Source: Heliocidaris erythrogramma
Taxonomy: Eukaryota > Echinodermata > Echinoidea > Camarodonta > Echinometridae
Length of the DNA stretch: 64,000 nt
Reading direction: 5' to 3'
Assembly: GCA_025617745.1 (NCBI GenBank)
Contig: CM046853.1
Span: 11,982,974-12,046,973 of the forward strand
In this document: piece after piece, positions 10,305 through 59,408 of the stretch
Numbering within the stretch: the stretch's first letter is position 1
Layout: the number at the start of each line of letters is the position of its first letter
The notes under the pieces: generated by a model
The model's input: the letters and a program-made list of their open reading frames with translations, nothing else
Told to the model about the DNA's origin: nothing
The model's database searches: none
Program-made: the position numbers and the translations under genes

Positions 10305-11013
10305 TGTAAGATTTGATTTGATTTGATTTGAATTTATTCTCATATTTCACAAAATAAGTAAAATATCAACACAATATAAGACAATACATTTGATTATAAC
10401 AATACAGTGTGGCAAAGTAATTTCAGTATAGCAAAAAATGGCAGTAGATTGTAACAATGACAATAAATGAGTTCGAAATATGAAGGAACCTGCATAAAAA
10501 GCAGAGCTTGTAAAGTCTGCAGGTTCCTTTAAAATATTATGAAATCAGCAATCAAGGAGACGGAACACAAAAAATCAGACTACATTGGAAGAGCCAAAGG
10601 TAAGTGAAAAGAAATTGTGGGGTAAAGAATGAGAAGAAAATGGAGAAGCTATAAGAATAAGAGAGAGAGAGAGGGGGTAAGAAAAGAGAGAGAGAAAATT
10701 CAATACTAACGCAGTAACGTACTTTTAAAAAAAGATACAAGGGTAGAAAACTTTGTTCAGCCAGTGCGTCTTAACTGGGTCCATAACTGGACAAAAGAGA
10801 GCATTTTAATTTACATTTAAACGTATTTAAGGATAAACAGTTGATTATTTCGTTAGGAAGATGATTCCAAAACCTGGGTCCGTCGAATACAATTGTTCTT
10901 TGAGCAAATAATGTACGAGGTCCTCCAAAAGGCAAAATATCATACAGAGTTATACATTTTGAAAAATTGACATTTAAGTCATGTGTGTTGGAACGAATGG
11001 GAAAGCTGACCAC
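10305..11013 (-). mobile_element. 5'-truncated LINE: reverse transcriptase C-terminus plus 3' UTR
   Basis: On the - strand, 11013-10771 encodes a typical LINE C-terminal motif (FDGPRFWNHLPNEI, then FKCKLKCSLLSSY) that ends at a stop. The - strand 3' untranslated part then runs down to a tail of CAAAT units (+ strand GATTTGATTTGATTTG) at 10310-10332. The 3' part shares a stem-loop and tail type with the element at 58439-59408, so both belong to one family. The copy lacks the catalytic domain and is not mobile on its own. Confidence 0.75.
10483..10529 (-). other. Conserved LINE 3' UTR stem-loop, copy 1
   Basis: AAGGAACCTGCA (10483-10494) pairs perfectly with TGCAGGTTCCTT (10518-10529) around a 23-base loop containing AGCTTGTAAAGT. 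The same loop and a stem of the same length occur at 58659-58706 with different paired bases. In stringent LINEs a 3' hairpin is what the reverse transcriptase recognises on its RNA; that role here is inference. Confidence 0.75.
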
Positions 11014-11454
11014 CGCTACATCACAGTGACCGTACCGATTTGGCCAAGTTTAAATTCTCATAATATGTATAGTGATTACAACTTTAAAAAAAAAATCTCA
11101 ACTTTCTTATTGTTTGTCCGATTTTGTTCACTTTCACCATTCTGCTTCCCTAAGTTTTCTGCTTTCACACAAATCAAATTATTACAAAGGTTGCTTTACA
11201 TCATTTACAGTTGCTTTACATGCACTCTACTATCATACCTATATTTTGTTGCTTATAATTATTCATAACATACGATGATGGTATACTTGTATTATTGTAA
11301 ATAAAAAAGGTACCCTGAATGTTATGTCGGGGGATAGTATAGGGCTGATCTTGGAGTTGGGAAATGGGGGGAGGCGACTTTCGGAATGTTAAAAAGTGAC
11401 ACTTATCATGCTGTAATGGTACTAGAAATACCACTCTTGACAGTGTGATTGTAT
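11014..11454. other. Intergenic, no gene seen
   Basis: AT-rich sequence between a LINE remnant and a box-array repeat. No coding or RNA signal was seen. Confidence 0.5.
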
Positions 11455-11458
11455 TGGT

Positions 11459-11757
11459 TTTCCCGGCCAATTTCACACTTTTGTCAGTCAGTTTAATAAA
11501 ACGTTCATTCAATTTAGCAAAAACATCTTTTACCACAGCTTCTGTCATTCAAAAATGTATTCAAGTCATTCAATTTAGCGTTTCGAGCAAGGGATTTTGC
11601 TTTTATATCATTCAAATTCATTTCCGTGCATTCAAATTAGCACGTTTGTAAGAATCATTCAAATTCATCGTCAGCTGCCGAAAGGACTCCTCGGGCGTTC
11701 GAATTCGGCAATGGGAAGTCAAATTCGGAACATGTTCATTCAATTTAACACGCAAGT
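11459..11757 (+). repeat. CATTCAAATTC box array, single arm
   Basis: It starts with GGTTTTCCCGGCCAATTTC, the same terminal word as the foldback at 13643-14731. It carries about nine copies of CATTCAAATTC or CATTCAATTTAGC. Spacings between successive box starts run close to 40, 21, 42, 20, 27 and 40 bases, the same order as in the right arm of the 13.6-kb element. No opposed partner arm is evident, so this is probably a solo or half element. Confidence 0.7.
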
Positions 11758-13524
11758 TATCAACCCCATGTTTTGGTTCATAATTCCCCTATTAATAAGG
11801 CTGGTTTCGGATTTCATTTCCTTTTTGAGTCCATAATATATAGTAGACATTATTGTCCTGTATAGGCTAGTTGTAAAGTTTAAAGGATGAATTGTATTCT
11901 GTAGATTTCCCAAAACCACGCAAGTTGGGAAAAATACCTGAAGGGTTAATTTGAAAATATAGGCCTACTTTAAACGAGAAAATTCATGCACCTAAGCACA
12001 GGCGACAATCTCTCCCTAGGAAGGAGTAGACAAACACAATGTCAGAAAAACAGCATTTCCTTATGTTGTCTTTTTTCTCATCTAACTATTATATGGGTAA
12101 CTTTTAAAACCCTTCTCTTTATCTACTTAAAAGATGAGGTTACATTTTCTTTATCATATCCTGTATGAAATAGCAGTGAAAGAGCTTTCATTTGTCTTCT
12201 TGTCTTCTAAAATGCCTTCTGAAATTTAGTGTTTAGAAGTTAGTCAAGGTCATCGCCTTTATATAAGATAGAGGGAGTGCAGTGTCCTCATCAATAGGTC
12301 AACTGCAATACATGTACTTCAAATGCCACCATTATGTCCATCTCAAGTGCGAAATCCTAAGGCAAATAATGGGAATATATTACATGAGACATATAAGTCA
12401 GTCGTATTGTAAAGTATATAATACTATGCTATGGATATTTCACGTAGAATTAAAATAGTAAATGTATAACTTCTACATGGTTGTCATGGTTGTTATGTAT
12501 TGAAAATAAGATAAGCAGTCTACTTCGGAATGAGGTCAATCCCGAAACTGAATGGAGCAGTCTATGATTTCGCTGCTTCCCGTCTTTCACCATGCCAATT
12601 TGTAATGCTTTCTGAAGATAATTCCCTCCGGAAATTAAACTCTTCAACACATTCAGTCGGAGACCGCCATGTTTAGTTTGAGTAAACTTTCTTCCTCTTT
12701 TTCCCCTTCTTCATCGTCAAGCTATAGGCGCCTTTCGACCTTCTTTTTCTTGCTGTTTTTCCCAAAGGAAACATACTGATTTTAGGTCGTTTTTGTTATG
12801 AAGAAGTATCCCATTTCCCTCCCCACCCCTAAAAAGTATAAAAAGACAAGTTAATTGCTTTTTAAAATATTGGGGATTTTAATAAGTCCAAAAGGAAGAC
12901 AGTATATATAGGTTAAAACTAGTTTACAGAAATGAAAAATCATCATGCGTTCTAATATAATGATTGTAGCATTCAGTCGTACCAAATCGTAAAAACACAC
13001 GAGCATTCTCGTAATCTAGTGCTTCAAAATGTTTTTACAAAATAAATTTACCTTTAATATCATGACTATGTTTAAGATATAAGTAAATAATATTTACATA
13101 ATTTTGTCTGGTGAGAAGTTATGTAAAAATATGTTATTTCATAATGTACCATGGACAGAAATGTCCCTCTAATTTTTTCTTCTAATCGGGTCAATTTCTT
13201 AGAAAGATCACTCCCCCCTTTAATTTTAGCCTCACCCACGATAATTATTAGGCAAGCCATCAGTTTCTCCTCTACGTGAACATTAATTTAGTCAAATGGT
13301 CAACACAAAATGGAAATGAGATTGTTTCGAATCCCCGGCACAGCATGGTCATTTGGCAAGAGTTTATTTTTGCCACTCTCGACTCAGGTGTACAATGGAT
13401 CACCGGTAGTTAAAGGCTTTGAGTGCCATGTTGCTTGGTGACGATGTTTAAACCACTTGCGCCATCTCCAGGCCTCTGTGGTATTTAGTTCATTCATTCA
13501 ACACAGAGAAATTGTAGGTATCAT
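11758..13524. other. Intergenic, no gene seen
   Basis: AT-rich DNA without convincing coding sequence. A box-A-like word on the - strand near 13461 lacks a correctly spaced box B. Confidence 0.5.
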
Positions 13525-13562
13525 CAAGGAGGTACTAGGCAAGCTTGTCTAGTACCTCCTTG
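13525..13562. repeat. Short near-perfect hairpin
   Basis: CAAGGAGGTACTAG (13525-13538) pairs with CTAGTACCTCCTTG (13549-13562) around a 10-base loop centred on AAGCTT. A second hairpin with a similar CCAAGGAG arm occurs at 26701-26729. It may be a tiny MITE or a palindrome. Confidence 0.7.
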
Positions 13563-13642
13563 GTTTCATATTGCAAACTGTTGATTAAATAACAATCAAG
13601 TCGAAATCACAAAAATATTCATAATTAGAAGGCTGAAATATA

Positions 13643-14731
13643 GGTTTTCCCGGTCAATTTCGTAAGATCGTCAGTCAATTTCATTTTGCGTGCATTCAAT
13701 TTCAAGGATTTAGGTCGCGCACAGCCGATTTGTAATTCAAATTCATTTTCATATCATTCGAATTCGTATTTATGTCATTTGAATCTAAGTTTTTGTCAAT
13801 CAAATTCGCACTAAATGCACCTAGTTCGCAAAACGTTCATTCAATTTAGCAAAGAATGGCAAGGGAATTGCGCAATACTGTTATTCCAGCATTCAATTTC
13901 ATTTCGGATCATTCAACTTAACACGTTGAGCATTCAAAATCAAATGTAGTTCCAGTAAATTTTGTCAGTTGATAATTATTTGGTATTTTCATTCTTTCCT
14001 TATGAGTTTTCTGCACACATGGGTGTGTTTTTCTATAATCAATAACATTCTTTTATTTTTCTTCTGATTTATTATTTTTATTTTATTTTCTTCTGATTTA
14101 TCATCATTTTGAAATTTAGTTCTAGGAATTTTTGTTCTTCATTTCTAACGTTTATAGTGCCTGCAGAATTGCAGATTTTCTTGATTGATTTTTATTTTTT
14201 TTCATAATCTTTTTTTTCATTTATTTTCTTGATTGATTTTTATTCTTTTTCATGTCTAACTATATATATATATAGTGAGTGTGTCACTGTGTTGGCTGTC
14301 AATGTATACTCTGAAAAATGTTATTCATAACGTACATGTAGTTATCATGAATTATGTTATATATATAATGTTTCCTTTGTATAGTAGGCCTATGTCATGT
14401 TGGGCAATGTATCTCTTTATTTATAGATGAGCAAAAACACACAAACGCTAAATACATGCTAAATTGAATGAACTCATTACGAATTCGAATGCCCACGTGC
14501 GAATTTGAATGCTCGAAAAGACGCTTCCAAGCGAGGTAGCGAATTTGAATGCTCGCCACGCATATTTGAATTTGAATGATGTAAACGCTAAATGTCTTGA
14601 CCGAAGTGCGAATTTGAATGACCTCAAAATGAATTTGAATGATAAATTTCATGGCACAGATCTTTTTCGCGAATTTGAATGACTCCCTTATCAAATTGAA
14701 TGACAAATCTGCGAAATTGACCGGGAAAACC
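13643..14731. mobile_element. Foldback-type element with box-array arms, TATA flanks
   Basis: The left end GGTTTTCCCGGTCAATTTCG (13643-13662) is the exact inverse of the right end (14712-14731). Each side is flanked by TATA (13639-13642 and 14732-14735), which suggests a 4-bp target duplication. Each arm (about 13643-13950 and 14460-14731) is an array of CATTCAAATTC-type boxes separated by spacers, so the arms pair in organisation more than in sequence. The centre is AT- and T-rich, with (TA)n near 14263-14275, and has no transposase. Foldback elements with sub-repeated outer arms (TU elements) are known from sea urchins; membership is inference. Confidence 0.75.
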
Positions 14732-15772
14732 TATAGTATCTTATAAATATGTTTGGGTATTGTTTTGTTGTTTGTTCTTTGTATCTTTTGCCCTACAAGT
14801 CGCGTAAACTGGTTTTGATTCATTTACCAAATACCTCCTATGTATATATCAAGCCCATGTGCAGTCCTTTCAAGATACCCAACAAAAAGTCTTTTTGACA
14901 GCTTGTTTATACTTAATCATCTCAAACTACGAACATTATAACATTTCTGTAAGATGTGAATTGAAGCAAAGTGAAATAGCTATATTGATATCATAAAAGA
15001 GATGTCCTGAAGCTTTATCTGTGCCGTACAGGATGATTTTTTTGTCAACAGATAAATCGGGGGACAGTCCAGTTATTCGGAAGGGCTACAGACCACGAGA
15101 TCGACATCCCATGATACTGATAAAACCAGTCTTATCAAAAGGTCCATGGTCTTATGGACCTTCGTATCACTTTTCTTTTCAGACGGTTCACCAGACCGAC
15201 CATATTGGTCATCCTCCGAAAAGTGACACAGAAGGGCCGTCAGTCTCGTGGGCCTTCTTGTCATTTCAAAGGGTTTACTAGACCCACAACCCAATACCGA
15301 CGACACATGAAACTGGCATTGTTTATCCTTTTCTATGAATTTCTTACCCCCCCCCCCTTCCTCCCTCTCATCTTTTTTCTTTCCTTACTGCATTTTCCCA
15401 TATACCGTCTCTTCTTATTTATTTTATATAGGAAATGATTCACAAAATGAAATACTGGTTGACAAATCAAGAGCATCCAGAGGTTATTTCAAGAATTCAC
15501 TATAAATCATTTATTAAGTAAATAACTAAAAATTTGTTGCTGCGATTCTGTAACATTTATTTACATATTGTAAATACAAATTTTGAGCACCGGTTGTTTT
15601 TGTTATTCGTGAATAAAAACCAATCATTAATCAATTTTTATAAATTCTTTCGTTTTCTATTTCTGTTCATCCCGGGTTTTTTTCTTTTTGCTCCTTCTAC
15701 AATTTTCTCTTTCTATATTTTGTGATTTATTTTCTTTTTCATTTCTCTTTCTTTTTCTTTTTTATTTTATAT

Positions 15773-15808
<36 letters not shown>

Positions 15809-17220
15809 AGGGACGAGAAAGAGGGACGTACGAGAACGGAAACATGCCCAAAAGCATTTAGGCCCTCTTGCTAAGCTTTAAAAAATTTGGGCAATTAGAA
15901 GATTTACTTTCGTTTTTTCCAAGACGCACGGAATACCAACTAGAAATTATGGTTCTCGTAAATGATATTATGATATAGGCTATAAAAAAATAAGAAAGAA
16001 AAAGAGAAAGAATGAAAACAAAATGTCACAGAACATAAAAGTAGATTTGACGCTAGTGTTATTGATGGTATTTATTGTCCTTTATGTACTTCCAAAGATA
16101 TTGGAGATGAATATCATTATATTTTTGTTTGTTCCTTTTTTTCATGACTTGAGACATACTTATTTACCAAAGAACTTAATTGTTAAAAGGCAGAGTATGT
16201 ACATTGAGCATGAACAAGCTTTTTAATCTGTCTAATACTTGCCAGCTGAGAAAATTATCAAAATTTGTAAGTATTATCATGTCATATTTTGCTAACTTGA
16301 AGAAATCAAACGATGAAGATTACATAGATATAAACTCAAAACAAAGTATTTGTATAGGTCTACCCGCAGTGGTAGAAGGGTTAAATGCCCATATAGGTTT
16401 AACTTGTAAATTTGTAAAATATGTTTGGTGTGTTACTACATGCTCTTTATGTTTTTTATAACTTGTATATATGTTTAGTATTATTCCTTTTTTATAACTT
16501 GTCCAGGTTGATTGTATAACTTGTATATGCGTTGATTGATTGTACTCTCCCTATACCTAATTGCGCATCTGTTAAATCTTATGCATTGAAGTGAACGCTT
16601 TATTTGCGGAAATCTGTGAAACAGTCACGTAATCCAGTTGTAGTTTGTTTTGTGCGGTTTTTCAATGGCTTTGAATACATTTTGAAAAATGCCCTTTCCA
16701 CCTCGCTCTCCATTCTTCATTACAAGAGCTGAACCCCTGTGTGAATAGCTTCGACGTGAAAAGCTTTCCCTATTTCGGATTTCGTTCATTACCGTGTCCG
16801 GATTAGCCTAATTGATTGTCATAGAATTTGATTTTGGTGCTACAACCAGGGCTCTTTGGGGCCTAATAACTCAACAAAAGACACATTAACCTATTATCAC
16901 TGAATAGAGGAATTACATTCAGGTTTTTTCACTCAATGTTTAAACACATTCCGGATTAAAATGTCCCACTGTGAGACAGACTTTTCACTTGCCAAATCAG
17001 AGAACTAACGAAGGCCTTATACATAAACCTAAAGTGGAAGTAAATATGTGTGCAAGAGAATGTAACCACAGGCACAGTAGACACAGGTCGTCTGTTTTTT
17101 TGAAAGTAAAGTATAGAATAATTTTTTGTAGTATCTTGCTGAGTTTGAATGCTTGAGGGTAAAACGCTGCCAACCGCACGAACCAAAAGAAACCTCCTCC
17201 AAATGCACGCCTGGCTAGTC
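14732..17220. other. Intergenic upstream of the F-box gene, minor repeats
   Basis: Holds a repetitive block at about 15040-15310 (AGGGCC, TTCACCAGACC and TTTCATTTC-like words recur in both orientations, giving open frames on both strands), a C-run at about 15350 and (GA)n at 15775-15804. The remainder is AT-rich. No gene was recognised. Confidence 0.5.
15775..15804. repeat. (GA)n microsatellite
   Basis: About 14 GA units followed by purine-rich AAGGAGGGACGAGAAAG sequence. Confidence 0.9.
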
Positions 17221-17675
17221 GGAAAGAATTACTGCACCGTAACTCGCCGCGTTTGCCTCGGTCACGTGACTTATTGATGCATGCTAGCGCCTAAGGCCAC
17301 TATAGCGCTGTTCACAGTAGTTTTGAATGGCACACACACGCATACGTTCTACACACAAACATTGCATTGGTCTCTACTGCACACAGTCTTCGCTGACACA
17401 AGCCGCGACCCAAGCGGCCCCGTTGCATCTGCTCATCGCTCTGTGTAATGTGCAACACGGCCTGTGAATTGATCCCAATGCAGGCATGCATGCTCATTCA
17501 TCGTACTTGTGTTGTATCATATGCACCTATGCGGCACAGCGTGCAGAGAGAATGTGGCTTGTGCACCGACATCGCCCATGGTGGCAGAGGATTCTTGCAT
17601 GGAAAGCAACACAAATGTGAAGCCGTTGGGACCCGAAGAAGTCGTCGAAACAGAGTCAGTCACTCTGTGGACGAA
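17221..17675 (+). promoter_or_regulatory. Candidate promoter and 5' UTR of the FBXL14-like gene
   Basis: The base composition becomes markedly GC- and CpG-richer here than in the flanks. GTCACGTGAC at 17261-17270 is a perfect palindromic E-box of the USF/MITF type. No TATA box is obvious, which fits a CpG-type promoter of a broadly expressed gene. The frame upstream of the chosen ATG stays open back to an ATG at 17448, but that extension is rich in Cys, His and Arg and unlike the family. A second frame (ATG at 17578, ending 17742) overlaps the start and would act as an upstream ORF if transcribed. The transcription start was not located. Confidence 0.45.
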
Positions 17676-18877
17676 ATGCCCTTCGAAAAGTACCAAGAGG
17701 AAACTCACATTTCATGTTTGTTTCCTGAAGTGCTCGCGCTAATATTCGGTTATTTGGACGTGCGTGATAAGGGTCGGGCAGCACAAGTGTGCCGTGCATG
17801 GAGGGACGCTTCGTATCACCGTTCGGTATGGAGAGGTGTGGAAGCCAAGTTACATTTACGACGGTCAAACCCCTCTTTGTTTCCCAGTCTTGTGGCGAGG
17901 GGGATCAAACGTGTCCAGATACTAAGTCTTCGAAGGAGTTTGAGCCATGTCATGCAGGGAATGCCGAGCATTCAAAGTCTAAACCTGAGTGGTTGCTACA
18001 ACCTGACTGATGTGGGACTCTCACACGCCTTCTCAAAGGAGATCCCAACACTGACAGTACTCAACCTTAGTCTATGCAAGCAGATCACTGACACTAGCCT
18101 TTGGAGGATAGAGCAGTATTTGAAGCAGTTGGAGGTGCTAGATCTTGCAGGATGCAGTAACATCACAAATACTGGTCTTTTGGTGATTGCAAGGGGACTC
18201 CACAAACTGAAGGGTTTGAATTTGAGGAGTTGTCGACACATATCTGATGTGGGTATTGGATATCTTGCTGGAGTGAGTGTCGAGGCAGCAAGAGGAACAC
18301 GAGATCTTGAACTTCTAGTGCTGCAAGATTGCCAAAAATTGAGTGACACTGCTCTCATGAGTATCGCCAAAGGACTCCATAAACTTAGAAGTTTGAATCT
18401 GAGTTTCTGCTGTGGAATCACAGACACTGGTATGATAAGCCTGTCACGGATGCCAAGTTTGAGAGAACTTAACTTGCGAAGTTGTGACAACATCAGTGAC
18501 ATCGGTCTCGCACACCTGGCTGAGTACGGAGGACATTTCACAACGCTTGATGCCAGCTTCTGTGACAAGATAGGGGATGCAGCGCTCTCACACATCTCTC
18601 AGGGAATGCCAAATTTGACGAATGTCAGTCTCAGTTCTTGCCATATCACCGATGAAGGTGTCGGGAGGTTAGTACGCAGTCTTCACAATATGACCACTTT
18701 AAACATTGGCCAGTGTGTTCGAGTAACTGACAAAGGACTAGCTTTGATAGCTGAACACCTCAAGGAGTTGAAGTGCATTGATCTCTATGGATGCACCATG
18801 ATCACGACTGTTGGACTGGAGCGTATCATGCAGCTCCCCTGCTTAACTGTTCTCAATCTGGGACTCTGGCATAAAAG
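17676..18877 (+). CDS. FBXL14: FBXL14-like F-box and leucine-rich-repeat protein, main exon
   Basis: This encodes the substrate-binding subunit of an SCF (SKP1-CUL1-F-box) ubiquitin ligase. FBXL14 and fly Ppa target transcription factors such as Snail-family proteins and Paired. The start at 17676 has G at -3 and gives MPFEKYQEETHISCLF, matching the family's ETHISCLFPE opening. Residues 12-60 form the F-box (LFPEVLALIFGYLDVRDKGRAAQ-type, then CRAWRDASYHRSVW). From about residue 90 to the end, some eleven leucine-rich repeats of the cysteine-containing type follow (L..LNLS.C..ITD.GL), including LNLSGCYNLTDVGL and CDNISDIGL. The frame closes at a TAG (18879-18881) after LNLGLWHKR. The family normally has a longer tail, and a splice donor (AAAAG|GTAGTA, GT at 18878-18879) precedes that TAG, so the exon probably ends at 18877 in phase 2. 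Identification of the family is secure; the 3' structure is less so. Confidence 0.93.
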
Positions 18878-18881
18878 GTAG

Positions 18882-25827: not shown

Positions 25828-26117
25828 TCTAAGTTCATTTGCATAAAATAACATTTTAGAATTAATGTTATTTAACAATTCATAATCCCTATCGGTCACT
25901 ATTAAAAGGTTATGAGTTTGATTTACATTCTGTGTAAAGTCTGTGTGAGCCTTTGTACACATATCGTTCAAAAGTTGTACGTGCAGTTTTCAGTATGAAT
26001 CCGATAAATGCACACAGGCTCACCGAGAGCGGACATGTATAATGAATGAATGGACACTTCATTTCTTTTATATGCATGTGTACATGTATGATAAACGAAT
26101 TTCCTAGATTCTTCTCT

Positions 26118-26212
26118 TATTTATTTATTTATTTAAATCACATATTTAAAAAAGGACTGGGTAGCCCAAATCAGCTAATATTTGCTGGTTTTCATTGGGG
26201 CCCTTTAAAATA
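26118..26212 (-). mobile_element. LINE 3' terminus, minus orientation
   Basis: On the - strand the order is GGGCCCCAATG, CCAGCAAATATTAGCTG, GGGCTACCC, then an (AAAT)n-type tail at about 26138-26118. This parallels the + strand terminus at 54546-54624 (GGGCCTCATGG, CACCAAATTGGTG, GAGCCACCC and (AAAT)n). The short hairpin stem is kept with a swapped pair. Only the tip of the element is present. Confidence 0.6.
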
Positions 26213-26700
26213 CAAACAAAGGTAATCCTTACTATAATTTGGCTAATGTGTGTCTGTCTGTCCGTCCGTTTGTTTGAAAGCGCTTTTCTCCGTGATGTTC
26301 CACTCAATCAAGCTGGGTTTTTTTTAAACGTGGTTAAATATTGTTCCCAGATTGTCATGAGGGGGGGGGGGGGGGGGGGTGTTTTTTGCCGGTATTTTGG
26401 TCGTATTATTTAAAGGTTTTTTTACAATTCGTAACTTTCTTTGGCAGGCCCCGAGTAAAGCTTCGAAGTTCCCAGTCCTTTTTCGGGTCAGCAAATTACA
26501 TAGGCATAAGTTTCACGTACGGTACGCTTCGCACCGTGCACCGTCTATTTGAAGCTGCTTAATACACGTAAAGCTATATGCTGATGAATGAACCGTCGCA
26601 CTGCGTGTACATAGATCTACACACTCGACCTTCAGTCAGTGTGTTTCCGTCCACGTGCAGTAAATGTGTACATGACATGGTTATACCAGGAATGGTTATA

Positions 26701-26729
26701 CCAAGGAGTTATCTGTGATAACTCCTTGG
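26701..26729. repeat. Short perfect hairpin
   Basis: CCAAGGAGTTATC (26701-26713) pairs with GATAACTCCTTGG (26717-26729) around TGT. It is flanked by GGTTATA words, including ATGGTTATACCAGGA just upstream. It resembles the CCAAGGAG hairpin at 13525. Confidence 0.75.
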
Positions 26730-26920
26730 TTATACACGTTTTAATTTGTCTATGGGTTATACATGTAACGTTAGATCTAATCTGAAAAGTGTTCAACATT
26801 CAGAAATTACCGGTGCTAATGCACATCCCGCCTGAATCTAGATCTACAAGTACAACTAGCACCTAATTTCAGTCACATCGGACATCGGGAACGGCTCTAT
26901 TTCGGCTTCGATGTCGTGTG

Positions 26921-28241: not shown

Positions 28242-28848
28242 TTAAAGACCATGCACACCTTTTTGGTACAATTCCTGCAGAGATGGCCAGTTAAGTTGCG
28301 ATAAAACATGCTCTGACGGAGTCATCCAAGAACAGCCAGATATAATGTCGGCTGCTCGCTTGAGCAGTTTAGTCAATATCTCATAGTTATTCTGTGATCT
28401 GTTTGACCAAACATTGCAACAATACATCGCATGGGGAAAAATATAGCCCCAATATAACATACTTAGATACCGTGTATTGAATGTACTTTTAAGTTTTCTG
28501 ATAACTCTTAGTTTCAGTTTCATCTGCTACGCTACTCTGTCAATATGGTTAGAGAAAGACAAGTAATTGTACAATACTACACCAAGACATTTTATACTCA
28601 CTAACTGATTCAACCGGTACCGTTCTAATATGAACATTAAGTTTATTTTCATTAAGAGTTTGGATTTTTTGTCTTGACCATAATTATCTTGACCTTGGAT
28701 TTGTCAGTATTCAGTATAAGTTTATACCTCTGAGTCGAATAATGAAATTCATATAATGCTTGATTCCATTTAGATTTAATGTCAGTAACTGAAAACCCAT
28801 GAAATGAGAGGGTTGCATCGTCCGCAAAAAATAAATCACCACAACTAA
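28242..28848 (-). pseudogene. LINE reverse transcriptase, palm-to-C-terminal part
   Basis: The - strand reads CGDLFFADDATLSFHGF near 28846-28795, carrying the FADD catalytic motif of non-LTR reverse transcriptases. Further on come NTDKSKVKI, then KCLGVVLYNYLSFSNHIDRV, and the C-terminal stretch with LKRAADIISG. At least one in-frame stop (about 28533) and a frame change interrupt it. It continues the element whose N-terminal half lies at 29806-30504. About 110 residues expected between the halves, including the usual D of motif A and the PQGS-type motif, are missing and replaced by unrelated DNA. Dead copy. Confidence 0.8.
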
Positions 28849-29080
28849 GAGCCCTTTCACACTCACTTCGTTAGAGCGCTCCAAGTAAGAACCGTTCCTC
28901 AGGAGCGGTTCCCAGGTGAGTGTGAATGCTCAAGTGGTCCAGGAAGCGTTCTTCTGGAGCGCTCCAGAAGACCACCTCGCGAGGTGGTCTTGAGGAACGG
29001 TTCTTAGTTAGACCGCTCCAAGGTGCAGTGTGCAAGCGAAAGCGATCCAAAAGCGTACTTCAACCGGAAGTGAGTGTGTG
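28849..29080. mobile_element. Foldback MITE with nested palindromes
   Basis: Outer arms CACACTCACTTC (28858-28869) and GAAGTGAGTGTG (29067-29078) are inverse, as are TAAGAACCGTTCCTCA (about 28886) and TGAGGAACGGTTCTTA (about 28991). Two perfect palindromes abut in the centre: a 22-bp one centred on GGAGCGCTCC (28950-28971) and a 24-bp one centred on CCACCTCGCGAGGTGG (28968-28991). The element is GC-rich and sits inside a LINE reverse-transcriptase gene. Confidence 0.75.
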
Positions 29081-29117
29081 TATTTCGCGGGAAATCTCGT
29101 GTGATTTTCGTTGATTG

Positions 29118-29745
29118 TCCTATAAGTGCAGGCCATCGATAGAAAGAAAACACAAGGAAAGATAGAAAGATAAAATGACAGAATGATAAAAACAAAGAAA
29201 GATATAGAAAGAGAAAACGATAGAATGATGAAAACAAGGAAAGATAGAAGAGAAAATGATACAATGATAAGAAATCTAAAGAAAGAAAAGACGACAGAAT
29301 AATGAAAACAAAGAAAAACAAAAGAAAACAAGGAAAGAGAGAAGAGAAAATGATAGAATGATAAAAACAAAGAAAAACAAATGAAAACAAGGAAATATAG
29401 AGAGATAGAATGATAGAATGATAAAAACAAAGAAAAACATAAGAAATCTAAAGAAAGAAAAGACGGCAGAATGATGAAAACAAAGAAATACAAAAGAAAA
29501 CAAGGAAATTAGATAGAAGAGAAAATGAAAGAATGATAAAAACAAAGAAAAACGAAATAAAATAAGGAAAGAAAAGACGATAGGATGATAAAAACAAAGA
29601 AAAACAAATGAAAACAAGGAAAGATAGAAAGATAAAACGATAGAATGATAAAAACAAAGAAAAGCATAAGAAGTCTAAAGAAAGAAAAGACGATAGGATG
29701 ATGAAAACAAAGAAAGAAAAAAAAGAAGCCTTGGAAAAAATAGAA
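29118..29745. repeat. Purine-rich minisatellite (GAAAGATAGAAA / GATGAAAACAAAG)
   Basis: About 630 bases of almost pure A/G sequence built from recurring words such as GATAGAATGATAAAAACAAAG, AAACAAGGAAAGATAGAA and AATCTAAAGAAAGAAAAGACG, in higher-order units of roughly 60-90 bases. The long - strand frames rich in Phe, Leu and Ser here are translations of the repeat and not genes. Confidence 0.85.
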
Positions 29746-29805
29746 ATAAATGCATCAGGCAGGCAGTATACGGTTTGATTTCCGCGCGAAAAAATTGACC
29801 CGCTT

Positions 29806-30504
29806 ACCTGCATGAGCTGTCATACAGAGTAAACCAGTTTCACAAGAGTGATTTGGGCGGAACCCAAATAATTATATCAAGGATATCATGCTCCAAAAGA
29901 TATTCTTGGAGTGCAGTGTGTACTGCTCTCTCCAATATCTTTGAAATAATTGTTAATAGGGAAATCGGTCGATAATTTTCGACACTTTGTTTATTTCCAG
30001 AGTTGAATATAGGTTTTACGCGAGTAATCTTCCATTCATTTGGGAAAACACCCTTCAACAGAGACAACTTGAAAATATACACAAGACATTCGATTAACTC
30101 AGGAGAAGTGCATGCACATTTTAAAGGTCTAATCGAAATACCGTCGGGCCCGGTAGCCTTTTTCGTGGGTAGGCCATTGATTTCTTTTATCACAAACTCG
30201 TTCGTAATTACTAGAAGATAAAATGATTCATGAGACACAAATTCTGAAGTGTTTCTAACATCATCTTTAGGAGCATCATACACCTGATCGTCGCTCTCAT
30301 ATTCATTGGAATTAAATGGATTTAACAAATTACCAACAGAATTTACAAAATAGTGGTTTAGATGCTGTGCTATGTCTTCGGGGTCAGTGACCTCCTGTTC
30401 ATCCACTTCTAATGTTTCCTTTTTTTTATTTGCTGATGATATTAATTTTAAAGTTTTCCACATAGCATTAGGGGTTCCACTATACTCGTCTAGTACTTTC
30501 TTTT
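29806..30504 (-). pseudogene. LINE reverse transcriptase, N-terminal part
   Basis: The - strand encodes DEYSGTPNAMWKTLK, a linker with HLNHYFVNSVG, the motif-0/1 region KKATGPDGISIRPLK, and motif 2 (WKITRVKPIF, then ENYRPISLL and KILERAVH). After a frame change near 29862 it continues as FRPNHSCETGLLCMTAHAG and stops matching at about 29806. These are standard early blocks of CR1/L2/Jockey-type reverse transcriptases. The endonuclease domain is absent (5' truncation at about 30505). The remainder of the enzyme lies at 28242-28848 beyond an inserted block. Confidence 0.85.
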
Positions 30505-47736: not shown

Positions 47737-47908
47737 AAATATTAAATCTACATTTAAAAAGTTTTTTAAAATGGTAAATTAACACTTTTAACATGCTGGA
47801 TCTAATAGTTTAAAGGCTGGATTCAGCATGTTAAAAGTGTTCAATAACCATTTTGAAAATGTTGTCACCCCTCCAACCTTTTAAATGGAGATTTAACATT
47901 TGACTTTT
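47737..47908. mobile_element. Small MITE with a perfect 18-bp inner stem
   Basis: AACACTTTTAACATGCTG (47781-47798) is the exact inverse of 47824-47841. Pairing continues outward with mismatches (AAAATGGT against ACCATTTT) to ATTTAAA words near both ends. No coding capacity. Confidence 0.75.
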
Positions 47909-50900
47909 TAGAGCTCCAAATTGAATTAAACGATGACATGTGGTTACCCCAGTTTCATGATTAGTACATTTTTTAAAATTGTATTCTGTTTGGGCGGATG
48001 GTAGTGCTGTAATGAGTAAACCAAAGACGAAATGTCAAATTTTCCAGTACAAAACAAATGTAGGTCACTTTAACATGCGATAATGCCTCTTTTAAAGCTT
48101 CTGCGCTCTATATCACCGCAGCCGACAAAATGAAGCTGGCGACGTTTCCATGGTTTCTCGCTTTCTAGCGCCTCTATTTTCAGGGAGCTGTAATTTAATC
48201 TCCGGCCCGTGTAATTTTCGGCGTACGTTTTGGGATATATACCACAAACACGATCTCTGAATGCGCCCAGATTATTGGATGCACATCGTGTAAAAGAAAA
48301 GAGAGAATAAAAACAAAACAATCCGTAATGAGGCCTGAAAGTCAGGGGAAACTAAAAAATCATAATTACTTCGAAAATGAGGAATAATTGGACGTGAACG
48401 AAGTAGGCAGCGTTGCGTATCACTAAGGCTGAGAGTGTGTAATGCATGCACGGATAGAAGAGAGTACATCAACAGTTGTATGATTATGGGTCTCTTCACC
48501 CTACATCTTCTATTTATTTGTTTCTATTTGCATCCATTTTTTTCTTCTCATTTGTGCTCGTGGAAAAGAGTAATACCTATAGTTTACTTTTCGAGAAGTA
48601 AAACAATGATACTAGTGGTTATACGGGATCAGATACTTTCGTAAGTTGCATTATTTTGTAAACATCATAAATAAGTTTGAATTGTACAGCTAAAGTAGAA
48701 TACAATGTCTTTACTTTCATTCTGATGATTCATATATCTCGTTTTATCTTCCTCACTCGTTTTTATTATACAAATATATACTCATATATATATATTTGAG
48801 CGTAATACTATCTAAATTTATAATGTATTGTTTCTTTGATTTAGACCACAGATTTCAAGATACGCTATTCTAAGCGACTGCAATGTTTGTCATAATTCTA
48901 AAATGGATTATATAAGTAAAGTAACGAGTTATATATAATTTGGATCATTGGCCGCGGTCGAAAATGCCTTATGATTTTCCAAACTCCTGTCATAATTCTG
49001 TTACGTGAAAATTCTCATTCATTTCTACCTGCATCCAACAGATAAAGAGGATTATGCTATATTTTCTTCATTATTCAGTATTTTCTGATGAAAAACATAA
49101 AAGTATATAATATGTAGTGAAGCTTATGTTCATTTCTACCTATCACTGAATCCACATATTTCTCAATACTGATGTCAACAATTGTGCATGCTTTATACAT
49201 TTACTACATGAATATGTAAATATGCAACTATGCTGCAAAATGTATCTGCTATTGTGTACATAACACATAATAAACCATTGAATAAATAAATAAATAAAAT
49301 TATATCCTTTATTATTGTGTCGTTCATATTATTGCCTTTAATGTGTGAGTCATCAGGGTTTAGTTGCGCTTCGTGGGCGACGAGTAAGGGGGGGGGGGTG
49401 AGGAGGAGGGGTCGGAGGTTGGACATCGTGACCGTGACAGAGCTCCGTTTCAAGGTCGGTGGAAACGCGTTATCTCGTCATCCTCGTGTAGGCCTACCTT
49501 CATTTTCATGTTTATCTCTTTTATATATTCATTCACTCTTTCCTTTTTGTATATCTTTCTATAATTGTTGATACAATTTACATAAAATACATCTCTCGAG
49601 ATACAATTCTCTTTGAAAATAGCAAAATTTTAGTTCGGTATATCACGTATCATAAAGCCCACTTGGCAAACCCTTTACTGGATGTTGTATTATTATGATT
49701 TATGGAATTCCGCCCATCAAACAACGTGACATGCCCAGACCATATGGACCCAGATGAACACGACAAAATTCTATAAACTAGAATATAATGAATCTCACGC
49801 TTCATTTAGAAAGTTGTGTATAAATGTGTATGTTTCAACCACGAAGATGGTGTATCACGTATGGTATTTTAGAATTCCCTCCATTTATTTTAATAAGGGA
49901 AGGCATTTTCTGATGAATTCTTTTTTATGACGACCTCGCTTATAAAATAATATGGAATTACAATGCATGTTTTGTTTTGTTCTTCTCTTTTTATAGTTTT
50001 TGTTTAACTCTCTTTTTTTAGAAACTAAAATAATAAGCATGGAAACGCTAGGGAGAGATCCAAAGTTACAGATAATTGGATATCGGTGCCCCTTAGTCGA
50101 GAACAGTAAAACCTAGGGGAAGGCCTCCATATGGCATTAAATGACAGATTCACCAATCAATTATTGCAGTTGTGCTACTGCGTCAAAAACAGGTACATGA
50201 AAATACCCGATAATGTATTCTCTCAACAATAGATTAATATTTAGGTTCAGATATGGTATTGTGAAGTTGTTAAAAAGCTTGTATTTATTGGATGATTTCG
50301 ACAATATGCTAACTTTTGTTACGTTATTCTGTTACTTTCTAATTGTGTTCCCTGGGCTCTTTTAAAGAAGTTTTAGAGTGGATTTGGAGTTGATTCACAT
50401 TATGTTCTAGATTTTTAATCAAGTAAAATATATGCAGATACAACAACATACAACGCTAGGTATTTGGGGAGAGGGCTGGTAGTTTGGGGATTTTAGTTTG
50501 ATCTTTCTGAGCTTTTAGAAATATCCATGCATGCAAACCTAGTGACCAAGAGAAAGATTTAGGTTGGAGGTGAAAATATTCAATTGAGCAGCCCTCTATG
50601 GAGGCGCCAAAATGCATTTCATACAACACGATAGTCTGTCGAAAAAAGAGAGACCTCCCTCACCTGCAGGATGGTTGCCATAGTTACCTCCACACATTCT
50701 GAATTATTGATCCTGTCCATTCCGCGTGAGCCTCAAACCATATAGATTAAAGTTTTGTGTTTAGTGTTATACTTTCATTTCATATAATATTCTGCTTCTT
50801 GTAGAAAGCAGTCAGAAAGTTGTAATTTAAGATGAAAAATATGATTGTGCTGCCGCTTGACAATTTTTTTCCCCCGCGTAAAATATTGAGGTGTCGCCTG

Positions 50901-52462: not shown

Positions 52463-52496
<34 letters not shown>

Positions 52497-52532: not shown

Positions 52533-52701
52533 TTTGAAACCATACAGAAAGCAAGCCTGCTCGGGACAGCACATATTCTGCGAAAGGTTATGGACTAGAA
52601 TGAAATTGACAATTACGAATAAGATGAGGACTTGTTGAAACAAAGAAAAATATTAACTGCAAGATCATTTATGTTTTAAAATTCTTTTTTATCTGTTATA
52701 G

Positions 52702-52897: not shown

Positions 52898-53154
52898 TTA
52901 TGTAGTACCGTACATAAGAATGTTATGTTTTAGAATCTTTCAAAATGAGAATAGACTGACTTAATCTTTTGAAAATCACATGCACTGCCCTCGGATATGG
53001 GTATATCATGGGACTACAAAAACATGTGCTATAACAGTTTTGTCCAAACTTTTCAGCTATTTCTCGTCATATTTCGAATATGGGGGCATTTGAAGAGCAA
53101 TCCTTTTAAGAATGAGAAAGTTCCCAAATTAATTTTCACCTTTACCAGAACTCA
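52886..53154 (+). repeat. Dispersed repeat A, copy 2
   Basis: Same-orientation partner of 23399-23703, shorter by an internal deletion between GAGCAATCCTTTT and TCCCAAATTAATTTTCACC. Confidence 0.7.
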
Positions 53155-54545
53155 GTCCTCGATTAAAAAATCAAATCGATGTAAAAGGTATCAGGCATTG
53201 TAGTACATCGTGACAAAATCATTGTATTGTCATTAAATTGCTCACCATGCTCACGATTAACATTTACTGTTTTATGTTTACCTCAAATGGTCCTACGTGT
53301 TTGGGTGGTTTTTTATATTCATGGGGCAAGGAAAAGGGGAAGCCGTTGTCAGTATGGACAGGTGACGACTGTTGCGGTTACATCACGTCAATACTCATCT
53401 GTGTGATTGATACCTGGATGATAATATTATTCGTATTCCATTCAAATCACGTAAGGGTACCTGCAGAGGTCTCTTGGCTAAAATTGTGTGTGTACGCAAG
53501 CCCATGGATCAGGAATACACCACTAGTCGTTAAAGATATTGCAGATTCAAAATTAGCTCTTGTTATTTAACATGGGGAGGGACATTTTGAGAGAGAAGTG
53601 CTTCACTAAAAAGCTTGCTGGTCAACACAAAACAACAACAAAATCAAGTCCCACATCACTCAACCCAAATAGACGCCTTCTTCAACAGAAGTTCTGGGGG
53701 GGGGGGGGGGTCTTTAGGCTTGCATCACAATTTTACTACAAAGTTTTACCTGTTTTGTTACAAATCGATAGCGTAGTCCTGTTTATGTACATGTACATAA
53801 TTATGATTTAAATGCAGTTTAAATTCAGACATCTGGTGTTTTAGCGTTCACTTTCCGTTTTTAATCGCCTATTTGTCCTTTAAATTTCTTGAATCATCTA
53901 CCTGACCGAAGCGCATGCATAACAAGAGGCCATGGTGTATTGAGTTATTCACTGTCAACGTCAATTATCTGTTCTGTAAGCTGAAGGCCTCACAGGTACC
54001 TTGCCTTTACATCAACGGAACCACAGAGACTGTACCTCGCAGGTGAGCAAAATAATCCAGGGTCTCTGTCACCTCTTTTATGTTCAAGTTTATCTTCTTG
54101 CCAGAGCCAAGGAGTACCGATTTCCCGACTTCTTTCTGCCGATCCTTCTTTTTATGACAAATGAATGCATCTTCACTTTCTCCTCACATTACATTTTCGT
54201 TCTCGTTCTTCTGCACCAACTTAGACTCATCAATATTTACATCTGTTATCTGCAGAGGAGATGTAAGCTGTGAACTATATGGGGATATTATGCATAGCAA
54301 CTTCTTTGGTATATGTTTTGTTAATTAATTATTTCCCCCTCATTTTGATGTGTGGTTATCATCCATATTTTAATTTCACAGTTTACAATGCTAATAATCT
54401 TTAATTTAAAATTCAATTCGAAAATTCTTGTAAATAGTCAATGAATATTACTGAATGATACCGATTAATGTGTATTATACGTGTTTATGCTTGTGTATTA
54501 TATATTGATTATTGTTGATGTTATTTGTTTTATTGTTACCAAACA
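53155..54545. other. No gene recognised
   Basis: A 110-codon + frame (53238-53570) includes a hydrophobic stretch, YITSILICVIDTWMIILFVF, but has no family match. A G-run of about 16 lies near 53696-53711. The part from 54000 may belong to the LINE whose 3' end follows. Confidence 0.35.
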
Positions 54546-54624
54546 GGGCCTCATGGAAGACCACCAAATTGGTGATATGAGCCACCCTGTATAAATATCA
54601 GAAATAAATAAATAAATAAATAAA
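54546..54624 (+). mobile_element. LINE 3' terminus with (AAAT)n tail
   Basis: GGGCCTCATGG, the hairpin CACCAAATTGGTG (54562-54574), GAGCCACCC and an (AAAT)n tail at about 54602-54624 give the standard end of a non-LTR retrotransposon. It parallels the - strand terminus at 26118-26212. No reverse-transcriptase frame was identified upstream in this copy. Confidence 0.65.
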
Positions 54625-56984
54625 AATATTTCATTTATTCTACATCGCTTACATTTACAATCTTCTGAATTGTCATTATTAAAGAGGAGCTGAATACAAT
54701 TTGGAATCGTATTAAGTGAATAATGAATAAATCAAGAATTTTTATTTTAAATATTTTATTTGTCCTTATATTATATGAAAGAAGCAAGTTTTCAAAGGAC
54801 TTCCCCCAAAATGAGAAAATCCGACATAAGTTTTGAGAATTAAGGAAAATGATTGACGAAGGCATCATTGAAATATGTAAAATCAGAACCATGTTCCATT
54901 CATATCTTCTTCTTCTTCTTCTTCTTTTTTGCTGCCTTTATGTAGCTCTGAATTGCGACTGTTAAATATAGCAATCTCTCTTCATTTTATCGTCGCATAT
55001 AATTATATAACAGATCACAAGGCAGAGAAGAAGAGCTGACATTTCTTGACTTCGGTCGAATATAATATGTTGACAGGTTTCAGTAATTTTTCAAGCAGTA
55101 ACGCCCCGGGGTTTCCCCAAACATCAAGATGTTGTTTTTGCTGTTCGATAATTGTCCTTCTTTTATGTTTTCATCAAACTTACTTTTCGTAAACTAGATC
55201 TCTTCTTTTCGAGGTCCGAGAAAAAGCAGACGTTCATTTGCGCAACTCGTTAGGTTGTTGCCTTTCTCCGAGCAATTTGTGGAATGACTTTCTCGCTTCT
55301 ACGCAACGTTAGTCTGATTCTCGCCTGCGCTGACGGCGTGGCGGACACAAACGTGGTCTGATTTTGCAATTTGTTTCCTGATTTTGCCGCCGCCGGGCAT
55401 GCGCATATTTATTGCATTAGTTCGGAGCTGTGTAACCACAATTTTCGCTAGAGAGCGCGCGAATCGAGTGCTCTTGTTAAATTTCGCTCATTTTCACGCC
55501 ACGACTGTGACAAACAGAAGATAAGGAATACAAGAGAGGGAGGAAACGAATGGCAGATCGCTGAAAAAAGGGCACAAGGAGTCATGTAAGAATGCTGTAA
55601 CGAGCTGGCATTATGTTTTTGTAATGTGTTCACGGGTTATTTTAATACGGGTCAAAAAGTACATCGGGTGCTACGCTGTACTTTGTCGACTAGAGAATAT
55701 GTTTCGCCCGAGGCTGATAGTTCAGTTGCTCTCCAAACCGTATGGTAGCATAAATGCGTCAATACATTACCAATGTCTGTTATAAACGTCTAACATTGGT
55801 AACATTCATTCAGTACCCTCAATACACTCAAAACGCTACACACTCATTACAATTGCAAATCAAAATATTCATAACTAATGTGTTATTGTAAAGACGAGGA
55901 ACGAATTTTCGGAATTTAATAATTTCTCTACGAATGAGCCAATCCTCTCCTCTCGATCGCCAGCTGATCTTTAGTCATTTCGTAGTTGAAAAGGTCTAAT
56001 CGAACTTATGTAAATAACTTGACTATCATCAACTACATTTCCTTCGTTCAAATTTACATACCATATATTATACTTATACACTTTTTATACGATCACATTA
56101 TTTTATGCAAACTTTTATACAAGGCGGACTCACAATGCCGCACAAACGAGAAAGATTATTATCAGTTTTTCGTGATTAGAGATCTAATGGACTTTAATTG
56201 CCTTTTCTGCGAGAGAATAATACAGGGTAATAAAGAGATATACATGTAGGGCCAGCCATTCTGATCAGGCCCAGCAAAGAAGCAATCGAAAATAATATCA
56301 GCTATACGACATCTGTCAGCATCTCCACAACTGTGATCCCGCCAAAATATCATCAGCAAAGGAGTCGTCTGCGACCTGATCTCAACTGCCAAGGAGAGAA
56401 TGGATGCTGTGTATAGGAAGACTGGTAAACTCATATTTCCCTGGTAGGTATATAGGCCTTCAATACACGATGAAGCAAATGAAGGCATAATACAAGGCTA
56501 CATTTCCTATACCTATAGGCCTATAAACCTGGACCTAATTGATAGTTTAATCCATTATTTTCTTTAGGCGATTTCAAATTATGGAATTCAGAGATAATAA
56601 TTACTAACCGGAAGACCTAACTGTAGAAGTTGACTCTCATTACACTTTTTTATTCTCGAAAATAAGTGACCTTAATAGCATTTGGAAAACATGGTACTTC
56701 ATTTTCCTTAGGTTCTTCACATATAATTACAATAATTCTTTTTGCAGTGTGCATTTTTTGGTAATATATATCTCTTCAAAAAAAGAGAATGGTCACGAGA
56801 ATTGGTAGCTAATAGACTCTCTCAGTAAGAGTATTATTTTGCAGCTTTTTTTTATTTTGTGATGGTCTTTGTATATGCTCTGTCATTCGACGACAGCTCA
56901 TTGATATGCCTGATGATATAAGTTTATTACTGAACATGCTGAATGCAAGTACCAGGTGACACTTCAAATGTGGAATAAACATTA
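54625..56984. other. No gene recognised; CpG-rich patch at 55230-55480
   Basis: The patch at 55230-55480 is GC- and CpG-rich with GCCGCCGCCGGGCATGCGC and could be a promoter or conserved element. The rest is AT-rich. Confidence 0.35.
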
Positions 56985-57088
56985 CTCGGAGAGGACTTAA
57001 AGCCGTCGGTCCCCTGGTTGCTCACTTACAAGCATACACATGCTTTCTTAGCATGTTAAATAAACCATCATCATCAATCATCATCACA
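56985..57088 (+). repeat. Possible SINE/LINE 3' end with (CAT)n tail
   Basis: A GC-richer stretch with GACTTAAAGCCGTCGGTCCC is followed by AGCATGTTAAATAAACC and then CATCATCATCAATCATCATCA at 57067-57087, a tail layout common in retroposons. No head or frame was found. Confidence 0.35.
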
Positions 57089-58108
57089 TTTTGAATGTAA
57101 AAGGAAAATTGATCTTATTTCCCATTTACAGTGAATTTTTTTTGTAATACTCAGAACTAGACAAAAGCATGCAAATCCGCGGAATGCATGGGGAAACATT
57201 CAATAAGGCAGTAAGCATCTCTCTCTCCCTCCCCCCCCCCCCTCTCTCTCTCTCTAAGTAAGCATCTCGCTTTGGAACAACTAAAAAAGGAAATAAGGAT
57301 GAAGAAACAGATGAAGAGACATAAGATAAGGAGAGGTAGAAAGACATGCTATCACATTGACCTCAATACTGCATGAGATGGAGTAGGGATAGACTCGTCT
57401 GGAACAGCGCAAATGATATTTTGCTAGCTTCCTCAGATGTTGACTTTGCCTACTCCTGGCTTTGCTCGTTGATGGGATCACATAGACTCTTCCCAGTCGC
57501 TTTGAGATTAATGGAATTGCATACATACAGTACTTTTACTGCATGCTTATTCTTACCTATCAACAAATCTTGGTCTTTTCAACTAACGTTCATAACTTAA
57601 GATTCGTCATAGATTATGAATTTAATCTTAAATTATTATCGTCGTTGTAGTTACTAAATGAAATTATATTTTGATTTAAAAATAGGAGTAGATAAATTGT
57701 ATCCACCCCCATTTTTTCACATTGTATATAAAACTGTTATACCAAAAAGGGCCCGCACGAAACCCAACTCGGACTTTGGTTTCGGACTTTTGGTTTTCTT
57801 CATACTCTTTAACCATTAACTCATTGAATGCCAGGTAGTTTTATAAGGTTGATTTTATACATTCGAGCTTTTCCTTTAAAGGCATATTGGAAAGTAGGAG
57901 GCCCAAAAAATAATACAATTTATTGAGAATTTGTCTTTTCCCCATTCACTAAACAAATTTCGTATCAGAAACAATTTTCAGGTTATAAAAAGGTCCTAAA
58001 TTAACAATGATTTTTCCCACTTATATACTGCACCTGGTGCTTATTTTAATTGATTATCTTGATGTTTTATACGCCATTTACATAATAAAGAAGTTTCCGA
58101 AATAAGAT
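57089..58108. other. No gene seen
   Basis: AT-rich, with C11 and (CT)n near 57229-57255. No coding signal. Confidence 0.5.
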
Positions 58109-58438
58109 AATATTTATTTATTTATTTATTTATTTATTCTTTTTTCCGTTTCACATGAACAAAATATAAAGAAACATGACATGATAAATATAATACAGCA
58201 AAGTTGTTAGAACATGTGTCATATAGAATACATGAAAATATCATAATTCTTGAAAAAAGGATCAGCAATATGACAATACAAAATTAAAAACACTTTAGCT
58301 TATAATAAGTGTAATATGAATGTAAAAAAAGGAACATTTCGGAAATGAGCTGAAAAAAGGGACAGAAAAAAAAAGAGAATAAGAATAAAGAAACGTCAAA
58401 TAACTCCCGCATATGATAAACAATCACATAGATGTTGA
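58109..58438 (-). repeat. Probable retroelement 3' fragment with (AAAT)n tail
   Basis: On the - strand the sequence ends in (AAAT)n (+ strand TTATTTATTTATTTATT at about 58111-58139), as expected for a LINE 3' end. It abuts the TTCAA tail of the next element, so it may be a second, nested copy. Confidence 0.4.
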
Positions 58439-59408
58439 ATTGAATTGAATTGAATTGAATTTATTTTTCACATTTCACAACGAAAATATACAAAGGTGTC
58501 ACGTCTGGACGAAGAATAATTTTTCACATACAGTTCAAGCATATACATAAAGGACAAGGTAAGAATAGTAAAATATTCATTAAAGTATACAATGCACAAA
58601 TCAAGTGTATAATTTAACCAAATATATAAGTCCATACCAAAATAAACAGTGAAATGTGTAGGAACCAACTAAAAAGCAAGGCTTGTAAAGTGAAAGTTGG
58701 TTCCTACTGAGCTGGAGTGCATCCTAAAGCAATGAAGTGTATTTCAAATATACTTATAACAATATGCTTAGTAAACTTGAAATTCAAATTCTGCCAAGTT
58801 ATTACTAAAAATAAAATAATAATAATACAGTACCATGTTTGATTTAATGAGCATCTAACCGGTTATTACAGGTTGAAGACTAATAAAAACAAAAATAGTA
58901 TCAGCTTAAATCTTAAATCTGCCTGAACGCTGATGAGTGAAAGGGTGTTTAATTGTACGAATGATGTTATTATGGTTGCAAAGTATAAGTAGTATTATAC
59001 GTTATATTTTTGTAACAAGAAAGATTTCAGTCTATTTTTAAAACTGTATAGTGAAGGGCTAGTGATGAGTTCACTTGGAAGTTCGTTCCAGAATTTAGGT
59101 CCGTTATACTTAATTGTTTTCTGGGCGAAGACTGTTCTTGTTCTTGGAAGATGATAGGAGTGACTTTGTCGAGTTGGATAAGTATGGAGAAAATCATTTC
59201 TCATGAACAAGGTTGAAAATACATCAGGGAGGTCGTCTGAGGATAATTTATACATAAAAACACCAACATTGAACAAAAACAATTCAGTTATTTTGAATAC
59301 TTTGTTTGAAGAATACTTTGAGAAGAATAATTCATTTGTATGAGCAAGAAATGGTTTCCGGTTGACTATTCTTATAGTCTTATATGTTCGAATGTGTTGC
59401 GCAAGCAT
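58439..59408 (-). mobile_element. 5'-truncated LINE: reverse transcriptase C-terminus plus 3' UTR
   Basis: The - strand frame from about 59408 to 58995 reads a LINE C-terminal domain: NRKPFLAHTNELFF, VFMYKLSSDDLPDVF, YNGPKFWNELPSEL and FKNRLKSFLLQKY, then a stop. A roughly 550-base 3' untranslated part follows with the conserved stem-loop (58659-58706) and a TTCAA-unit tail (+ strand TTGAATTGAATTGAATTGAA, 58438-58460). It is the same family as 10305-11013. The palm domain and endonuclease are absent. Confidence 0.8.
58659..58706 (-). other. Conserved LINE 3' UTR stem-loop, copy 2
   Basis: TAGGAACCAACT (58659-58670) pairs perfectly with AGTTGGTTCCTA (58695-58706) around a 24-base loop containing GGCTTGTAAAGT. 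Compared with copy 1, inner stem bases differ on both sides in a way that keeps all pairs. Confidence 0.75.

Follow-up and report, generated by a model that had tools for sequence, protein, structure and literature searches.

Stringent-type long interspersed nuclear elements (LINEs) are those whose protein has to locate a stem-loop in the RNA of the element itself (PMC4176376, cited from an excerpt, as are the other papers below). In the zebrafish elements ZfL2-1 and ZfL2-2, retrotransposition is lost when the stem-loop is deleted or swapped; the loop is indispensable and element-specific, whereas the stem of the other element is accepted, and a disrupted stem fails in ZfL2-2. In UnaL2, altered stem sequence sharply lowered the rate, so that stem sequence does matter in some elements (PMC4176376). 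The present analysis concerns two LINE ends, elements A and B, and the hairpin carried in the 3' untranslated region (UTR) of each, within a 64,000-nucleotide stretch of Heliocidaris erythrogramma (assembly GCA_025617745.1, contig CM046853.1, positions 11,982,974 to 12,046,973), referred to below as the window. This hairpin is probably the 3' recognition element of two related, long-separated LINE lineages, its pairing having been kept by selection on the source elements.

Like the zebrafish hairpins, those of A and B lie in the 3' UTR and combine a specific loop with an exchangeable but paired stem. The ZfL2 hairpin stands in the 3' tail, with binding by the protein of open reading frame 2 (ORF2) demonstrated, whereas that of A and B is known from sequence and lies 144-192 nucleotides (nt) before AATAAA (PMC4176376). 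A hallmark of recognition hairpins is an end stem of 4 base pairs (bp) followed by an asymmetric internal loop, with which the predicted shape of A and B agrees (PMC5135761). Eel UnaL2 also resembles A and B in joining a stem-loop to a pentanucleotide-repeat tail, both being needed in UnaL2, but its loop is GGAUA, whereas that of A and B reads CTTTACAAGC-NN-TGCTTTTTA, includes an inner AAGC/GCTT stem and stands a long way from the repeat (PMC5135761). Compensatory stem changes around fixed loop letters are described for a monocot L1 lineage, and this lineage and the 3' hairpin of maize and sorghum short interspersed nuclear elements (SINEs) share with A and B a compensated stem, a fixed loop and a 3' end kept against a diverged remainder. 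They differ in clade and sequence, in occupying the last ~45-50 nt, and in having been compared across several families (PMC3747384).

Two diverged LINE ends sharing a hairpin

The two elements and their tails are as follows.

10310..11013, minus strand: element A, 5'-truncated LINE end (ORF2 end, 3' UTR, AATAAA, (AAATC)n tail); 5' limit approximate, from the first-pass annotation
58435..59408, minus strand: element B, 5'-truncated LINE end (ORF2 end, 3' UTR, AATAAA, (AATTC)n tail); 5' limit approximate, from the first-pass annotation
10310..10338, minus strand: AATAAA and 5-bp repeat tail of A
58435..58465, minus strand: AATAAA and 5-bp repeat tail of B

Both elements show an open ORF2 end, a TAA stop, a 3' UTR, AATAAA and a 5-bp repeat tail, with the ORF2 ends still open over 92 codons in A and 175 in B, stop to stop. 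No target-site duplication of at least 6 bp was found in the examined flanks of either element. The 137 amino acids of B matched no Pfam family, and a reverse transcriptase (RT) domain is absent from both elements. From the look of their ORF2 ends and tails, A and B are presumably CR1/L2-like.

The first-pass annotation had presented A and B as two copies of one LINE family, a description that the comparison contradicts: the two are not alignable along their shared length, and their coding ends are identical at 25 of 45 amino acids (56%). Over these 45 codons, nucleotide differences numbered 14, 14 and 28 at the first, second and third positions, respectively; third positions differing most, together with ORF2 ends still open, is as expected if the sources of the lineages stayed functional. 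Judged from these alignments, A and B are two diverged LINE lineages, not copies of one family. It follows that source lineages are being compared, replacing the earlier premise of independent copies of a neutral repeat.

BLASTN of A against B returned low-E matches at the hairpin (42 nt, 83%) and the terminal tail (44 nt, 84%), and a third, weak match in a coding stretch (75 columns, 69%, E 0.007). The alignment score of the hairpin itself was reached by none of 500 shuffles, while that from stop codon to hairpin was reached by 459 of 500 and that from hairpin to tail by 219 of 500. This single comparison supports the hairpin as an island retained between lineages whose other 3' UTR turned over, which is better evidence of constraint on the source elements than sister copies would give. 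A recent common origin or module exchange would instead have the hairpin shared by 3'-end recombination, younger than the rest and under little constraint. That hairpin and tail alone align is what a swapped 3' piece would leave, but the 126-170 nt that separate the hairpin from the terminal block are unaligned, so a single block does not fit, and recent sharing does not predict the four double-sided changes without a broken pair described below. Such an exchange is accordingly considered very improbable.

The hairpins and their loops are located as follows.

10483..10529, minus strand: helix 1 of A, a 12-bp hairpin whose 23-nt loop contains an AAGC/GCTT mini-stem; perfect inverted repeat 10483-10494/10518-10529
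58658..58707, minus strand: helix 1 of B, a 13-bp hairpin whose 24-nt loop contains an AAGC/GCTT mini-stem; perfect inverted repeat 58658-58670/58695-58707
10495..10515, minus strand: conserved loop motif in A
58670..58690, minus strand: conserved loop motif in B, in which the final A takes part in the stem

Perfect 12-bp stems with loops of 23-24 bases had been claimed for both elements; the claim is exact for A, whereas B has 13 bp rather than 12, with a 24-nt loop. The minimum free energy was -20.5 kcal/mol (z -5.48) for A and -20.9 kcal/mol (z -5.41) for B, and as stable a fold was reached in 0 of 200 shuffles for each. The folding program pairs AAGC/GCTT inside the loop motif, giving a 4-bp mini-stem with a 3-nt loop, beyond which a predicted asymmetric internal loop leaves 8/4 nt unpaired in A and 10/3 nt in B. 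An asymmetric internal loop or bulge located 4-6 bp away from the terminal loop, as in stringent-type LINEs, is thereby present in the predicted folds. Within the scanned geometry, a 4-bp mini-stem together with an outer stem of at least 12 bp occurs at no place but A and B.

The common loop, read on the minus strand, is exact in A and B at 19 of its 19 specified letters. Allowing up to three mismatches, the motif has two matches in the window, both exact and belonging to A and B, against a mean of 0.05 matches in 100 shuffles, one of which held two. Coincidental similarity and pairing, picked out by eye in the first-pass annotation, would draw on the sample of two and on the pattern having been chosen after reading. 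It is barely credible beside the shuffled folds and alignments, none of which did as well (0 of 200 for either hairpin; 0 of 500), and beside a loop-motif expectation of 0.05 per window.

In both hairpins the loop is surrounded by AGGAACC/GGTTCCT. The common outer stem GGAACC/GGTTCC and the common loop word of the first-pass annotation are both present, the shared loop being longer than had been stated. With helix 1 numbered from the first G of GGAACC as pair 0, 12 pairs are formed in both hairpins in register, of which eight are identical and four differ on both sides, without a single broken pair, bearing out the earlier observation that several inner pairs changed on both sides together. 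The double-sided differences, given as A/B, are A-T/T-A at -2, T-A/A-T at +6, G-C/A-T at +7 and A-T/T-A at +9. Pair +9 is the least secure, its 3' partner in B being the A that ends the loop motif in the sequence alignment; because this A is aligned to the conserved loop, three of the four changed pairs are unambiguous. Neither stem contains a G-U pair, and B has one further outer pair.

For four pairs replaced freely, the probability of all matching was calculated as 0.272^4 = 0.0055 from the base frequencies of both 3' UTRs. Beyond the shared 7-bp core, A has five and B six more Watson-Crick pairs, with random-flank P values of 0.0074 and 0.0027, respectively; these pairing figures were all calculated after the pattern had been seen. 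A conserved 3' UTR stem-loop in related elements and a fixed loop on a variable but paired stem, both features of stringent-type LINEs, are found here with n = 2. With just two sequences, MAFFT displaced the 3' arm.

Template switching at an imperfect hairpin, copying arm onto arm, would produce perfect stems with several pairs changed at once, without an RNA function being needed for the paired differences. Both stems are indeed perfect and free of G-U pairs, and three of the changed pairs fall within four adjacent positions. Perfect hairpins of at least 12 bp with loops of 3-30 nt number seven in the window including A and B, five others in all, far above the single one in 12 shuffled windows together. 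What such copying leaves unexplained is the identical loop (19 of 19 letters) and outer stem in 3' UTRs that otherwise no longer align; furthermore, pair -2, separate from the inner block, is likewise changed on both sides. As the origin of the paired differences, template switching without selection is therefore regarded as improbable.

A candidate long-range helix

A second helix was explored between the sequence directly 3' of each hairpin and the sequence shortly before AATAAA.

10475..10482, minus strand: candidate helix 2 of A, first strand CATATTTC (exploratory)
10341..10348, minus strand: candidate helix 2 of A, second strand GAAATATG (exploratory)
58649..58658, minus strand: candidate helix 2 of B, first strand CACATTTCAC (exploratory)
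58469..58478, minus strand: candidate helix 2 of B, second strand GTGAAATGTG (exploratory)

The first strands CATATTTC and CACATTTCAC follow the hairpin directly, and the second strands GAAATATG and GTGAAATGTG end 2 and 3 nt before AATAAA, so that helix 2 would loop out 126 and 170 nt of freely evolving sequence in A and B. Eight pairs are common to both elements, including one double-sided change (T-A in A, C-G in B); the helix of B extends to 10 pairs, the first C of its strand being pairable in either helix. When the 16 nt following the GGTTCC arm were shuffled along with the 30 nt leading up to AATAAA, a helix this long at those places had a P of 0.0065 for A (at least 8 bp) and 0.00026 for B (at least 10 bp). 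The sole 8-bp helix of that range in A is the one at the place homologous to that of B.

Several results speak against helix 2. When its place is left free, an 8-bp helix occurs in 19% of A shuffles and a 10-bp helix in 2.5% of B shuffles. Folding after the hairpin is ordinary, with z +1.14 for A and -0.99 for B. In A, the long-range pairs are predicted at ~0.02, a local hairpin with the same terminal block being preferred. Helix 2 of B is predicted at 0.83-0.99 when the RNA is folded from the hairpin to the end and is absent from the fold of the whole 3' UTR. Helix 2 is treated as a lead, not a result.

A 3' UTR with more than one helix is recognised in R2, whose RNA is bound there in target-primed reverse transcription; R2 differs from A and B in being specific to ribosomal DNA, and in R2Tg the pseudoknotted element falls within the 67 nt at the 3' end of the UTR (PMC12222951). 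A two-part 3' signal, in which helix 2 would place the hairpin, stacked, alongside the tail and spatially close to the priming site, is a tentative and rather doubtful model. If true, the model would account for the action of a mid-UTR hairpin at the 3' end.

Further copies and neighbouring features

A third, degenerate copy was sought in the window, yielding six rows with an outer stem of at least 8 bp, two of them overlapping, of which only A and B reach 12; the same scan in six shuffles gave 0-4 rows at 8 bp and none at 12 bp. Rfam at gathering scores returned no match in the window. The exact loop pattern had no match in a collection of viral contigs, nor did the terminal-block pattern or the loop-plus-stem pattern there. 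GGAACC with the first loop half was found in 10 stretches of viral contigs and rejected, TGCTTTTTA and the full GGTTCC arm both being absent from all 10 segments, although pairing of GAACC with GGTTC would be possible in two of these. A pattern search of the viral contigs for protein relatives of B gave six matches, none of which was confirmed. A loose pattern in bacterial contigs gave at least 116 stretches, judged to be chance, with a best flanking stem among the matches listed of 10 bp, A/T only, and a next best of 8.

Other tails in the window also have hairpins close by. A plus-strand LINE end comprises an ORF2 remnant at 1325-1438 (GGPKLWNALP) and a TAT tail at 1576-1594, immediately preceded by an AGCGC...GCGCT hairpin at 1526-1561 on the same strand; the 101-nt stretch 1490-1590 folds with z -2.70, a stability equalled by 5 of 200 shuffles. 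This LINE end (1325-1594) is presumably L2-like. Two related hairpin segments, C (54546-54587, plus) and D (26159-26203, minus), stand before AATA-type tails at 54602-54624 (plus) and 26117-26135 (minus), respectively; the score of their alignment was reached by none of 1000 shuffles. By eye, at least one inner pair of C and D is changed on both sides (CACC/GGTG vs CAGC/GCTG), a second case in the window resembling that of A and B, and their pairing by the fold program is similar, not identical. The AT-rich tails at 49281-49298 (plus) and 58111-58138 (minus) have no comparably stable hairpin within 500 nt upstream, the best reaching -10.2 and -10.0 kcal/mol. Within the window, a hairpin close to the 3' end, in some cases with paired changes, is neither unique to A and B nor universal.

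Perfect 14-bp hairpins at 13525-13562 and 26700-26730 have the outer arm CAAGGAG/CTCCTTG in common and differ in the inner arm, with loops of 10 and 3 nt. A perfect 18-bp inverted repeat at 47781-47841, whose flanks pair further, is predicted to fold at -46.2 kcal/mol within a 101-nt stretch of the plus strand and is perhaps a small inverted-repeat element. Remains resembling another LINE occupy 28245-30463 (minus), with an RT start at 29840-30463, a later RT-like piece at 28245-28526 and low-complexity tandem repeats at 29138-29727 between the two; the RVT_1 match of 29840-30463 scored 16.6 bits, under the Pfam cut-off of 29.6. An unbroken reading frame of 477 amino acids at 17448-18881 (plus) carries F-box-like and LRR_6 domains above their Pfam cut-offs and is, we assume, FBXL14-like.

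A putative recognition hairpin and its meaning

In the proposed mechanism, the LINE protein would bind its own RNA at the hairpin, recognising the fixed loop and requiring a paired stem of whatever letters, and target-primed reverse transcription would begin at the tandem tail. Selection on source elements would hold the loop and keep the stem paired while its letters change in pairs, an outcome that A and B may have inherited from their sources. A fixed loop with a partly exchanged but paired stem is what the recognition mechanism of zebrafish L2 predicts. We infer the binding partner and the retrotransposition step of the A and B hairpin, and likewise that the pairing was kept by selection rather than by mutation. 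The proposal in the first-pass annotation of a selected RNA hairpin, probably the RT site, survives as the best available reading, fitting the literature on stringent-type LINEs, while its one-family premise falls away.

Several points weigh against a recognition hairpin. The comparison consists of two sequences; both elements are 5'-truncated, and the ORF2 parts that would bind the hairpin are absent from them. No loop or hairpin copy beyond A and B, hence no partner SINE, was found in the 64-kb window. The plus-strand fold is stable too, at -22.9 kcal/mol (z -6.29) for A and -21.0 kcal/mol (z -3.94) for B, so that folding is no proof of an RNA role and the hairpin is oriented by the LINE that carries it rather than by its fold. 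The five further perfect hairpins in the window indicate that some common process in the genome makes or keeps such structures. Finally, the recognition hairpins of the cited papers, as excerpted, stand at the RNA end, whereas those of A and B lie in mid-UTR, 144 and 192 nt before AATAAA.

This position also suits a selected RNA element serving another step, namely 3'-end formation of the transcript, or the stability, export or translation of the LINE mRNA, rather than RT binding, since the recognition hairpins of the cited papers adjoin the tail. However, the fixed loop and exchangeable paired stem match the recognition hairpins of zebrafish L2, and the second strongly conserved block of the 3' UTR is the tail, where reverse transcription starts. 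A role in another step is therefore viewed as unlikely, and recognition at the 3' end stays the preferred reading.

The hairpins of A and B are real and probably a new case of a known kind, that of conserved and compensated LINE 3' hairpins. The CTTTACAAGC-NN-TGCTTTTTA loop is unmentioned in the literature searched, which was mostly listings and lay outside Repbase-type consensus libraries, so it may already be published; a search for papers by spelled loop variants and the degenerate form gave no paper whose title concerned LINEs. Retention of the loop and of a paired stem across diverged lineages would provide a handle for naming families with one recognition code, and the same handle points to SINEs that may borrow that code.

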